Shown here: piece by piece, positions 16,364 through 34,518 of the stretch
How positions within the stretch are numbered: position 1 is the stretch's first letter
Layout: the number at the start of each line of letters is the position of its first letter
Translations under genes and position numbers: made by a program
Notes under the pieces: generated by a model
Told to the model about the DNA's origin: nothing
The model's input: only the letters and a program-made list of their open reading frames with translations
Database searches by the model: none
Source of the DNA: Bosea sp. OAE506
Lineage (GTDB): Bacteria > Pseudomonadota > Alphaproteobacteria > Rhizobiales > Beijerinckiaceae
Assembly: GCF_040546595.1 (NCBI RefSeq)
Contig: NZ_JBEPOB010000001.1
Span: forward strand, 2,667,001 to 2,731,000
Length of the DNA: 64,000 nucleotides
Direction: 5' to 3'

Positions 16364-16543
16364 TCACGGGCGAAGGGGAGCCGGTTCCTCCCGGGTCTCC
16401 TGACCCAGCTGCTTGGCGCTGGTCACGGCGGAGTCGGTCAGGCCGACGACGCTCGCCCAAGCGCTGCGGGTATGGCTGCCCTGATGGGCGATGGCGTCGT
16501 AGCCGATCAGGATAACGGCGACGAGAAGCAGGATCCGGAACAT
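16364..16543 (-). CDS. Small single-span membrane or exported protein
   Basis: Unrecognised 59-residue protein. It starts MFRILLLVAVILIGYDAIAH, a hydrophobic helix that could be a signal anchor or signal peptide, followed by a polar tail ending in QETREEPAPLRP. Support comes from an AAGGAG ribosome binding site 6 bases upstream of the ATG at 16543 and a start-to-stop frame filling the gap between glgP and the radical SAM gene. No homologue is recognised. It lies between glgP (same strand, downstream) and the LexA-type box (divergent side). Confidence 0.6.
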   Translation of the reverse strand: MFRILLLVAVILIGYDAIAHQGSHTRSAWASVVGLTDSAVTSAKQLGQETREEPAPLRP

Positions 16544-16655
16544 CGGTGTCTCCTTGAAATGACGTGCCGCCCCAACGCGCGGCAGTTGCGCCTGTTCCGG
16601 AGAAGGCTGCCGCGACGAAAGGTCTCTGGCGGGAGCACGCCATCCGCGCTACCTA

Positions 16656-16670
16656 GAACAAAGAATGAAC
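16656..16670. promoter_or_regulatory. LexA-type SOS box, alphaproteobacterial
   Basis: GAAC at 16656-16659 and GAAC at 16667-16670, separated by seven bases. This is the reverse complement of GTTC-N7-GTTC, the known alphaproteobacterial LexA operator. It lies 14 bases upstream of the GTG of the radical SAM gene, a position where LexA would block transcription. No other copy was noticed in the window, but no systematic search was done. Confidence 0.75.
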
Positions 16671-16683
16671 GAAAGGGCGCGGT

Positions 16684-17916
16684 GTGGCACAGCTGTCGGT
16701 GATGGAGAAGCTCGAGATCCTAAGCGACGCGGCCAAATACGACGCCTCCTGCGCCTCCAGCAGCACGACCAAGCGCAATTCGCTGAAGGGCGGCCTCGGC
16801 TCGACCACGGGATCGGGCATCTGCCATTCCTATGCGCCGGACGGCCGCTGCATCTCGCTTTTGAAGATCCTGCTGACCAATTACTGCAGCTATGATTGCA
16901 TTTTCTGCATCAATCGCTCGTCGAGCAATGTCCGGCGCGCGCGCTTCACGGTGGAGGAGGTCGTCGACCTCACGCTGAGCTTCTACAAGCGCAACTACAT
17001 CGAGGGGCTCTTCCTCTCCTCGGGCATCATCCGCTCGCCCGACTACACGATGGCGGAATTGGTGCGGGTGGCGCAGACGTTGCGTGAGGTCCATGGCTTC
17101 CGCGGTTACATCCACCTCAAGCTGATCCCCAGCGCCAATGCCGATCTGGTGGCGCAGGCCGGCCTCTATGCCGACCGCGTCTCGATCAATGTCGAACTGC
17201 CGACCGAGGTTTCACTGGAGCGCTTCGCGCCCGAGAAGCGTCCGCGCGAGATCAGTGCCGCCATGGGCGGGCTGCGGCTGCGGATCGAGGAGAGCAAGGC
17301 CGAACGGGCGAAGACGCGGCGCGCGCCGGTGTTCTCGCCCGCGGGGCAGAGCACGCAGATGATCGTCGGCGCCGACGGGACGAGCGATGCGACGATCCTG
17401 CAGCGCAGCGCGCAGCTCTATGGCTCCTTCGGCCTCAAGCGGGTCTATTATTCCGCCTTCAGCCCGATCCCCGATGCCAGCCGCCAGCTGCCGCTGTCGG
17501 AGCCGCCATTGCTGCGCGAGCACCGGCTCTACCAGGCCGACTGGCTGACGCGGTTCTACGGCTTCGAGGTCGGCGAGATTCTCGACGACGGCGCGGACGG
17601 GATGCTCGACCTCACCGTCGATCCCAAGCTCGCCTGGGCTTTGCGGCATCGCGCGCGCTTTCCGGTCGACGTCAACCGCGCCGATCGCGAGACGCTTTTG
17701 CGCGTGCCGGGGCTGGGCACGAAAAGCGTCGCGCGCATCCTGGAGACGCGCCGCTTCCGCCGCTTAAGGCTGGAGGATGTCGGCAAGCTTGCGCGCTCCA
17801 TGGCGACGCTACGCCATTTCATCGTTGCGGAGGGCTGGCGGCCCGGCGCTTCTCTCGACAGCGAGCGGCTGAAGCAGCATCTGGCGCCGAAGCCGCAGCA
17901 ACTCGCATTGCTGTGA
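16684..17916 (+). CDS. Radical SAM protein, putative DNA modification/repair
   Basis: 410-residue radical SAM enzyme of the family annotated as putative DNA modification/repair radical SAM protein (TIGR03916 type). The 4Fe-4S cysteines are C68, C72 and C75 in NYCSYDCIFC. The C-terminus carries a helix-hairpin-helix, LLRVPGLGTKSVARIL (about residues 339-354), typical of DNA binding. GTG at 16684 is chosen because GAAAGG precedes it; an ATG at 16702 is possible. It overlaps the UdgX fusion by 4 bases (GTGA), so they are co-translated. The reaction is not established for the family. The LexA-type box immediately upstream suggests DNA-damage induction. Confidence 0.9.
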   Translation: MAQLSVMEKLEILSDAAKYDASCASSSTTKRNSLKGGLGSTTGSGICHSYAPDGRCISLLKILLTNYCSYDCIFCINRSSSNVRRARFTVEEVVDLTLSFYKRNYIEGLFLSSGIIRSPDYTMAELVRVAQTLREVHGFRGYIHLKLIPSANADLVAQAGLYADRVSINVELPTEVSLERFAPEKRPREISAAMGGLRLRIEESKAERAKTRRAPVFSPAGQSTQMIVGADGTSDATILQRSAQLYGSFGLKRVYYSAFSPIPDASRQLPLSEPPLLREHRLYQADWLTRFYGFEVGEILDDGADGMLDLTVDPKLAWALRHRARFPVDVNRADRETLLRVPGLGTKSVARILETRRFRRLRLEDVGKLARSMATLRHFIVAEGWRPGASLDSERLKQHLAPKPQQLALL

Positions 17917-19394
17917 GGCCCGCCATGGCGCAGCCCGGCATCCTGGCGCGTCTCGACCACCCGGCCGATTTCGACGGCTGGCGGCGGCAGGCGCGCGCGC
18001 TGGCGCTGGCGGAGGTGGCGCCGGCGCGGATCGAGTGGCAGGTCGGGGCGGAAGCGTCCGGGCTGTTTTCCGGGTTGGCCGAGCCCCCGCCGCTGCCGGC
18101 GAACGGGACGGAGCTGCGCGTGCCGCGCGATTTCGTCGAGCTGGCGCAGGCGGTCGTGTGCCATCGCGACGTCAGCCGCTTCGATCTGCTCTACCGCCTG
18201 CTGCTGCGGCTCCAGCGCGAGCCGACCTTGCTGCATGTGATTACCGACGACGAGGTCCATCGCGCCCGGGCGATGGCGAAGTCGGTCCGCCGCGACCTGC
18301 ACAAGATGACCGCCTTCGTCCGCTTCCGCGAGGTCGTCGGACCCGATGGCGGGGAGGCTTTCGTCGCCTGGTTCGAGCCCGAGCACCACATCGTCGAGCG
18401 CGTCTCGCGCTTCTTTGTCGAGCGCTTCGCGGCGATGCGCTGGTCGATCCTAACGCCGCTGCGCTCGCTCCACTGGGACGGTACGACGCTGCATCTGGGG
18501 GAGGGAGCGTCGCGCGCTGACGCGCCCGACGACGACGCGATGGAGGGCTATTGGCGGACCTACTACGCCAACATCTTCAATCCGGCGCGGCTGAAGATCA
18601 AAGCCATGAAGGCGGAGATGCCCGAGAAATACTGGCGCAACCTCCCTGAGGCCGAGCTGATCGCGCCGTTGATCGCGCAGGCCGGCCGCCGTGCGGAGGA
18701 GATGGTGCTGAAGGCCCCGACCCTGCCGCCGGAGCGGCATCTGCGGCAGAGCCAGCGCCAGCGCGAGGGACTGGTGCCGGCGTCGGAGCTGCCAGAGAAC
18801 TGGGCGGATGCGCGCCTGGCGGCGAAGACCTGCTCGCGCTGTGATCTCTGCCACAGCGCGACGCAGACGGTGTTTGGCGAGGGGCCGCTGACCGCGCCGG
18901 TGATGTTCGTCGGCGAGCAGCCGGGTGATCAGGAGGATCTGGCGGGCACACCCTTCGTCGGGCCGGCCGGGCAGGTCTTCGACCGGGTGATGGGGGAGGC
19001 CGGGCTCGACCGCAGCCGCGCCTATGTCACTAATGCGGTGAAGCATTTCAAATTCACCGTGCGTGGCAAGCGGCGCATCCATGAGCGGCCGAATGCCGGC
19101 GAGATTTCGGCCTGCCGTTTCTGGCTCGGGCTCGAGCGGGAGTTCGTGAAGCCGCGGCTCGTCGTCGCGCTGGGTGCGACCGCGCTACACGCCCTGACCG
19201 GCCATCGCGGCTCGCTTTCCTCGATGCGGGAGCGCGATCTCGCGCTGGAGGACGGCACGGCGCTGCTGGCGACCGTCCACCCCTCCTATCTGCTCCGTCT
19301 GCCGGACGAGGAAGCGCGCGAGCGTGAGACGGCCCGCTTCCGCGCCGATCTGGAGCGCGTCGGGTTGCTGGTGCCGGAGATGAGGGCGGCCTAG
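17913..19394 (+). CDS. udgX: DUF4130 domain fused to UdgX-type uracil-DNA binding protein
   Basis: 493-residue two-domain protein. Residues 1 to about 270 match the uncharacterised DUF4130/TIGR03915 module. Residues about 295-490 are a UdgX-type family 4-like uracil-DNA glycosylase, with Fe-S cysteines beginning CSRCDLC, motif GEQPGDQEDLAGTPFVGPAG from G334, and the diagnostic loop KRRIHERP (386-393). In UdgX the loop His, here H390, bonds covalently to the uracil-site sugar. VHPSYLLR near the end is the second UDG motif. Translationally coupled to the radical SAM gene. GTG 17913 or ATG 17925 could start it. Likely cytoplasmic. Confidence 0.93.
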   Translation: MRPAMAQPGILARLDHPADFDGWRRQARALALAEVAPARIEWQVGAEASGLFSGLAEPPPLPANGTELRVPRDFVELAQAVVCHRDVSRFDLLYRLLLRLQREPTLLHVITDDEVHRARAMAKSVRRDLHKMTAFVRFREVVGPDGGEAFVAWFEPEHHIVERVSRFFVERFAAMRWSILTPLRSLHWDGTTLHLGEGASRADAPDDDAMEGYWRTYYANIFNPARLKIKAMKAEMPEKYWRNLPEAELIAPLIAQAGRRAEEMVLKAPTLPPERHLRQSQRQREGLVPASELPENWADARLAAKTCSRCDLCHSATQTVFGEGPLTAPVMFVGEQPGDQEDLAGTPFVGPAGQVFDRVMGEAGLDRSRAYVTNAVKHFKFTVRGKRRIHERPNAGEISACRFWLGLEREFVKPRLVVALGATALHALTGHRGSLSSMRERDLALEDGTALLATVHPSYLLRLPDEEARERETARFRADLERVGLLVPEMRAA

Positions 19395-34388: not shown

Positions 34389-34518
34389 CGCAAGGGTGCC
34401 CTTGCGTCAGCGCAAGACTGCTCACGCGAATGGCACTTGGCGCCGAGGACGGGATCGGTTGTTCTGGAATGGTTCCAATCGGCGCCATTCCCGGCGACCG
34501 AAGCCTTAGGGAAGCGCC

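Follow-up and report, generated by a model that had tools for sequence, protein, structure and literature searches.

A putative LexA-controlled operon pairing a radical SAM/helix-hairpin-helix protein with a DUF4130-UdgX fusion in Bosea sp. OAE506

Results

Two overlapping genes behind a LexA-type box

The operon described here lies in a 64,000-nucleotide stretch of the Bosea sp. OAE506 genome, a single contig of 5.0 Mb (NZ_JBEPOB010000001.1, positions 2,667,001 to 2,731,000; this whole stretch is called the window). It consists of two genes, for a radical S-adenosylmethionine (SAM)/helix-hairpin-helix (HhH) protein and for a protein in which a DUF4130 domain is fused to a UdgX-type uracil-DNA glycosylase (UDG), preceded by a short repeated motif:

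16656-16670, + strand: predicted LexA (SOS) operator, GAAC-N7-GAAC, GAACAAAGAATGAAC; reads GTTCATTCTTTGTTC on the - strand, i.e. GTTC-N7-GTTC read backwards
16684-17916, + strand: radical SAM/HhH protein, 410 amino acids, GTG start, matched by the family profile TIGR03916 (rSAM_link_UDG)
17913-19394, + strand: DUF4130-UdgX fusion protein, 493 amino acids, matched by the profiles TIGR03915 and TIGR03914

The second gene starts inside the end of the first, with a four-base overlap. An earlier interpretation made from the letters of the window (hereafter the sequence-only reading) had seen the box at this place and put it 14 bases before the radical SAM gene; the spacing to the GTG at 16684 is 13 bases. 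An ATG at 16702, 18 bases into the frame, is an alternative start candidate.

The same reading had correctly named the first protein as a radical SAM protein with HhH motifs. It matches TIGR03916 with 568.4 bits against a cut-off of 343.5 over model positions 1-399 of 415, and the radical SAM profile PF04055 with 31.9 bits against 29.5. The best named match, from Bosea vaviloviae SD260 (taxonomy: Allobosea, Hyphomicrobiales, Alphaproteobacteria), is 92% identical. Solved relatives found by sequence cover short HhH and radical SAM stretches only, and the few further weak matches were taken as noise. Six cysteines (C23, C47, C56, C68, C72 and C75) are invariant in our alignment A1 and retained in 236 of 237 rows; C68, C72 and C75 form the invariant CX3CX2C motif. 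From their conservation, the other three are candidate ligands of a second Fe-S cluster.

The second protein had been called UdgX-type, which holds for its second half: TIGR03914 (UdgX) scored 320.5 bits against a cut-off of 189.95, and the signature residues and the fold are intact. The KRRIH loop with its nucleophilic histidine and the GEQPG motif A are identical to those of structure 6ajo, and the histidine was found by eye in 19 of the 19 fused proteins of alignment A2. The first half, which the sequence-only reading did not mention, is DUF4130 (TIGR03915, 213.6 bits, cut-off 112.25). In a fold search with the model of the fusion, the lists were dominated by UDG folds and the DUF4130 fold was barely sampled.

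NCBI names the families of both proteins putative DNA repair proteins, TIGR03916 being a putative DNA modification/repair radical SAM protein. Two other identities were considered and dropped. Lipoyl synthase was suggested by fold resemblance alone; its family TIGR00510 gave no match at E 0.001, at which TIGR03916 was the only family reported. An anti-phage role was abandoned when the PADLOC models returned no family for either protein at E 0.01.

The box is conserved in related operons

We took all 97 loci with TIGR03916 above cut-off from 397 genomes of the order and searched up to 350 bases upstream of the radical SAM gene. The exact box, which the sequence-only reading had expected to recur in homologous operons of related genomes, was present in 91 of the 97, in 33/33 loci from other orders of the class, and in 74 of the 78 named alphaproteobacterial loci with enough upstream sequence (80 were collected). 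Summed without the five named loci that duplicate genomes of the other sets, 194 of 203 distinct alphaproteobacterial loci carry it. Searches inside the gene gave 0/97, 0/33 and 0/78, and patterns with altered spacers, reversed order or inverted half-sites gave 0 to 2 matches per group. For comparison, windows of about the same size held the exact box at 17/29 recA loci and 0/29 lipA loci. Each of the ten rows that lack it (nine distinct loci) has a one-mismatch form within 150 bases, against a background of 5/130 when 160 bases within the gene were searched in a comparably relaxed way; one of the upstream forms (L229) overlaps the gene start and another (L040) lies 99 bases off.

Outside the class but within the same phylum, GTTC-N7-GTTC was found in none of 27 loci. 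There the exact motif was CTGT-N8-ACAG, which we take to be the LexA operator of Gamma- and Betaproteobacteria, in 19/27 loci, or in 22/27 when one mismatch was allowed (1/27 inside the gene).

In an alignment of five upstream regions (the window, three Bosea loci and one Hyphomicrobiales metagenome-assembled genome), the box is a block of conserved letters amid otherwise diverged sequence. Across the order, the nearest box lies at about -27 to -109 from a fixed codon, and the orientation of the half-sites varies. This variable distance and orientation, together with the different operator found beyond the class, argue for active upkeep of the box. Three genomes, L092 (Methylopila capsulata; duplicated as L256), L096 and L099, have three upstream boxes each, with a spacing of 35-36 bases between two of them, which may point to stacked LexA sites.

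Company of the box in the host genome

Taken alone, the window says little: it holds two box matches against a mean of 0.97 in shuffled sequence, and 27 of 100 shuffles reach two, which is not significant. The second match, at 34461-34475, lies just past a gene that by eye resembles a xanthine-dehydrogenase-type subunit and looks like a chance occurrence. The genome-wide scan for GTTC-N7-GTTC that the sequence-only reading had proposed was more informative, with 81 exact sites compared to 41 for the pattern read backwards. Only five of the 81 have six or seven A/T in the spacer; the operon box is among them, and the other four adjoin umuD-umuC, an imuA-like gene, a PA0069-family radical SAM gene and a DUF3072/HlyU pair.

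We inspected 20 stretches containing 21 sites, as well as the lexA locus. Boxes precede recA (L007), ssb, umuD-umuC, the imuA-like gene (a weak assignment, 46.8 bits against a cut-off of 150) and lexA, whose box is at 1415 of L022. In several stretches no SOS gene could be recognised, as would be the case if roughly half of the exact sites arose by chance. Together, the conservation of the box, the switch to another operator beyond the class and this company argue that it is a LexA-type operator, as the sequence-only reading had proposed in recognising the alphaproteobacterial operator in reverse. Predicted from sequence, LexA control of the operon is well supported.

Two further boxes have less expected neighbours. 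One with an AT-rich sequence, GTTCCTGTTTTGTTC (GTTC-N7-GTTC; L011, G000:C1:3631469-3634483), lies ~200 bases before a DNA polymerase III alpha-like gene. The part of this gene in view has the replicative alpha subunit as its best match, and the gene would be an unusual SOS target. The other, GTTCCTATTTTGTTC, with an AT-rich spacer (L006, G000:C1:2455273-2458287), sits between the DUF3072 gene and the HlyU-family gene, both from small families whose role in DNA damage is unclear.

Radical SAM and DUF4130 form the constant pair

Among the 397 genomes, the radical SAM family scored above cut-off in 97, DUF4130 in 100 and both in 96, so that the two co-occur in 96 of the 101 genomes that have either. 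Caulobacter vibrioides, included as a control genome, also matches both families, DUF4130 above its cut-off; two of three control genomes pass the cut-off for the radical SAM family. A DUF4130-UdgX relative lies downstream on the same strand at 97/97 loci of the order. The partner was likewise found downstream in 77 of the named loci; the remaining contig (L226) ends ~120 bases past the gene. By a pattern-based count, which misjudged a few diverged proteins, the partner is fused to UdgX in 92/97 operons of the order; outside the class, by the same count, it ends after DUF4130 in 14 of 27.

In the 14 genomes with these shorter operons, TIGR03914 did not reach its cut-off (0/14): six gave no match, seven scored 23-36 bits, and G716 reached 154 bits against 189.95. 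The cut-off was reached in 2 of the 23 genomes searched (G597 and G609), where the gene lies just beyond the stretch analysed. The LexA box is nevertheless kept in 13 of the 14 DUF4130-ending operons, ten with exact CTGT-N8-ACAG and three with one mismatch, from which it follows that the SOS switch goes with radical SAM and DUF4130 whether UdgX is present or not. Radical SAM and DUF4130 make up the constant pair, with UdgX as an optional addition. The sequence-only reading had stressed the covalently bonding UdgX protein; that emphasis was misplaced, given that UdgX is missing from many LexA-box operons.

A plasmid search returned 158 records with the radical SAM protein. With the patchy distribution across the order, this indicates that the operon behaves as an accessory module. 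Ten records of a phage collection (H31-H40) also encode a radical SAM relative, at 48-55% identity: eight are records of phages sampled from human faeces and two of Acinetobacter phages. The genes may be genuine phage copies or may stem from host DNA.

Other features of the locus

One further reading frame shares the intergenic region with the box:

16364-16543, - strand: divergent short reading frame of 59 amino acids with a hydrophobic start, possibly a small membrane peptide; membership in the operon is putative

Its N-terminus reads MFRILLLVAVILIGYDAIAHQG, and its start region is retained, by eye, in the upstream alignment with L182 and L183. A consensus scan showed neither promoter nor terminator. 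Judged from reading their sequences, the genes upstream resemble glycogen metabolism genes and one downstream gene is short-chain-dehydrogenase-like; the flanking genes were uninformative, and inferring a function from them was dropped.

Discussion

Proposed mechanism

We propose, with a probability of about 0.72, that this is a LexA-repressed DNA-damage operon in which the radical SAM and DUF4130 proteins reverse or edit a damaged base and UdgX is an accessory. In the undamaged cell, LexA bound at 16656-16670 would keep the operon off; RecA-stimulated cleavage of LexA would release it and allow the two overlapping genes to be expressed. The radical SAM/HhH protein most likely acts as an enzyme on DNA, which its HhH region would bind. 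Its CX3CX2C cluster is predicted to make the 5'-deoxyadenosyl radical, and the three further invariant cysteines near the N-terminus probably hold a second Fe-S cluster. DUF4130 may recognise the lesion or present it to the radical SAM protein, and together they would undo or edit base damage, perhaps at a pyrimidine. The fused UdgX would excise uracil, stay covalently on the abasic site and so shield it. Action on DNA is suggested by the weak HhH matches and by the identity of UdgX; DNA binding by the radical SAM/HhH protein is likely but not secured. The operon is best read as SOS-induced and as serving either direct repair or base editing of DNA.

A broader proposal, which we put forward tentatively and think somewhat more apt to fail than to hold, is that the radical SAM-DUF4130 pair represents a new class of damage-reversal or base-editing systems. 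Such systems would bring a deoxyadenosyl radical and an auxiliary Fe-S cluster to bear on DNA bases under each bacterial class's own LexA operators, with UdgX as an added safety module capping abasic or uracil intermediates.

Several observations weigh against the proposed mechanism. On the protein side, the HhH Pfam matches fall below the Pfam cut-offs, the N-terminal cysteine stretch (residues 17-57) is modelled with a predicted local distance difference test (pLDDT) score below 50, and DUF4130 has no solved relative by sequence (three matches at E 1 to 1.6 were taken as noise; a second search gave none). On the regulatory side, five of the 27 operons outside the class (L122 and L156-L159) lack a LexA-type box even when one mismatch is allowed, a simple scan of 16500-16760 gave no sigma-70 promoter at the box, and the loci compared share ancestry and are not independent samples. 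As to distribution, four genomes have DUF4130 and no radical SAM family, and one has the reverse; the operon is patchy, being found in 97/397 genomes of the order and missing from two of the three other genomes of the genus, which indicates that it is not a core repair function. The four DUF4130-only genomes (G171, G194, G216 and G376) belong to one genus, and in three of them the match stops short of the domain end, so these may be decaying operons.

Alternative explanations

The strongest alternative places uracil at the centre: UdgX would be the working part, capturing uracil raised by SOS polymerases or damage and shielding abasic sites, and the radical SAM protein would only help, for example in resolving the covalent adduct. 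UdgX is intact in residues and fold, and fusion to it is the rule in Alphaproteobacteria (92/97 in the order). In excerpts of the respective papers, UdgX is proposed to protect abasic sites under stress (PMC10359453), and the operon is termed a putative UDG-based base excision repair system (PMC8565304). Against this stand the 14 of 27 operons outside the class that end after DUF4130, with TIGR03914 below cut-off throughout and a LexA box in 13; what stays constant is the radical SAM-DUF4130 pair. We consider the uracil-centred explanation improbable, at about one chance in six.

Rather less probable again is a role in damage tolerance or mutagenesis, in which the pair would edit bases in the template to let SOS polymerases through, and mutation and survival would rise together. 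The box is indeed common to the imuA-like gene and umuD-umuC in the host genome, but neither imuAB-dnaE2 nor umuDC was seen by eye around the operon (about 9.6-23.7 kb).

That the box arose by chance and the operon lies outside LexA control, for which one could cite the unsurprising two matches in 64 kb (27/100 shuffles) and the scan of 16500-16760 that found no sigma-70 promoter, is rejected as highly improbable on the conservation of the box in relatives, the operator-type switch, the recA and lipA yardsticks and the other controls, and SOS regulation of this operon type has been published (PMC8565304, in excerpt).

Relation to known systems

We take COG4277 to be the radical SAM/HhH family of the operon. 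In the excerpts on which our statements about the literature are based, a paper from 2021 predicts that a two-gene COG1573-COG4277 operon of Bacteroidetes is under SOS control and says that the same operon was reported in Verrucomicrobia and Alphaproteobacteria, citing a Caulobacter SOS regulon study (PMC8565304). If COG4277 is indeed this family, that operon, like the present one, pairs a UDG with an HhH/radical SAM protein behind a LexA operator, although the operator sequences in Bacteroidetes differ from those found here. It was described there as base excision repair, whereas our comparison places radical SAM and DUF4130 at the core, with UdgX optional. The sequence-only reading had called the system undescribed. 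This does not hold, since SOS control of what is apparently the same operon is in print and NCBI already names the families as putative DNA repair proteins. The SOS regulation of the operon is thus most likely not a discovery. Our literature search found no report of the operator switch across classes or of UdgX being dispensable while the LexA box is kept; the cited Caulobacter (2008) and Verrucomicrobia (2016) papers may hold either.

As excerpted, other papers give GTTC(N7)GTTC as the Caulobacter LexA consensus (PMC12907096) and predict that DUF4130, linked to UDGs and to radical SAM proteins of the SplB-like kind, is a mutagenesis-related enzyme (PMC3765255). Covalent capture at uracil-derived abasic DNA has been published for the UdgX of Mycobacterium smegmatis, the shielding being the authors' proposal, and its own students call the physiological role of UdgX largely unknown (PMC10359453). 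The excerpted parts of two UdgX papers (PMC10359453 and PMC10776899) mention neither radical SAM nor SOS. The M. smegmatis protein is a chain of 205-229 residues in solved structures, in contrast to the fusion to DUF4130 seen here, and its motif B is HPS(S/A)(L/V)(L/V)R compared with HPSYLLR.

Among radical SAM enzymes, lipoyl synthase and others with auxiliary clusters lack the C-terminal HhH extension by which the operon protein differs from them, and the cysteine spacing of lipoyl synthase-type enzymes is also different. PA0069, an SplB-like radical SAM protein (COG1533) that presumably belongs with SplB, likewise stands behind an SOS box. It falls in a different NCBIfam family, NF033668 rather than TIGR03916, and NF033668 gave no match to the operon protein at E 0.001. 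The host genome has one such gene (558 bits to NF033668) with an SOS box, at L012:253-1557 (G000:C1, about 4707382-4708686). Of 30 relatives of that locus, 25 have the exact box in the scanned stretch, and the other five each hold one site elsewhere. SOS control of splB has been predicted for alpha- and betaproteobacteria (PMC3323433, in excerpt).

Significance

The comparison shifts the focus from UdgX to the pair of radical SAM protein and DUF4130, and operons that share this kind of switch but differ in whether they contain UdgX offer clean natural controls. To our knowledge, spore photoproduct lyase is the only DNA-repair radical SAM enzyme with worked-out chemistry. If the proposed mechanism is true, the operon would provide a second such enzyme, one that is widespread and SOS-controlled. 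DNA repair would thereby gain a further chemistry, and UdgX a setting.
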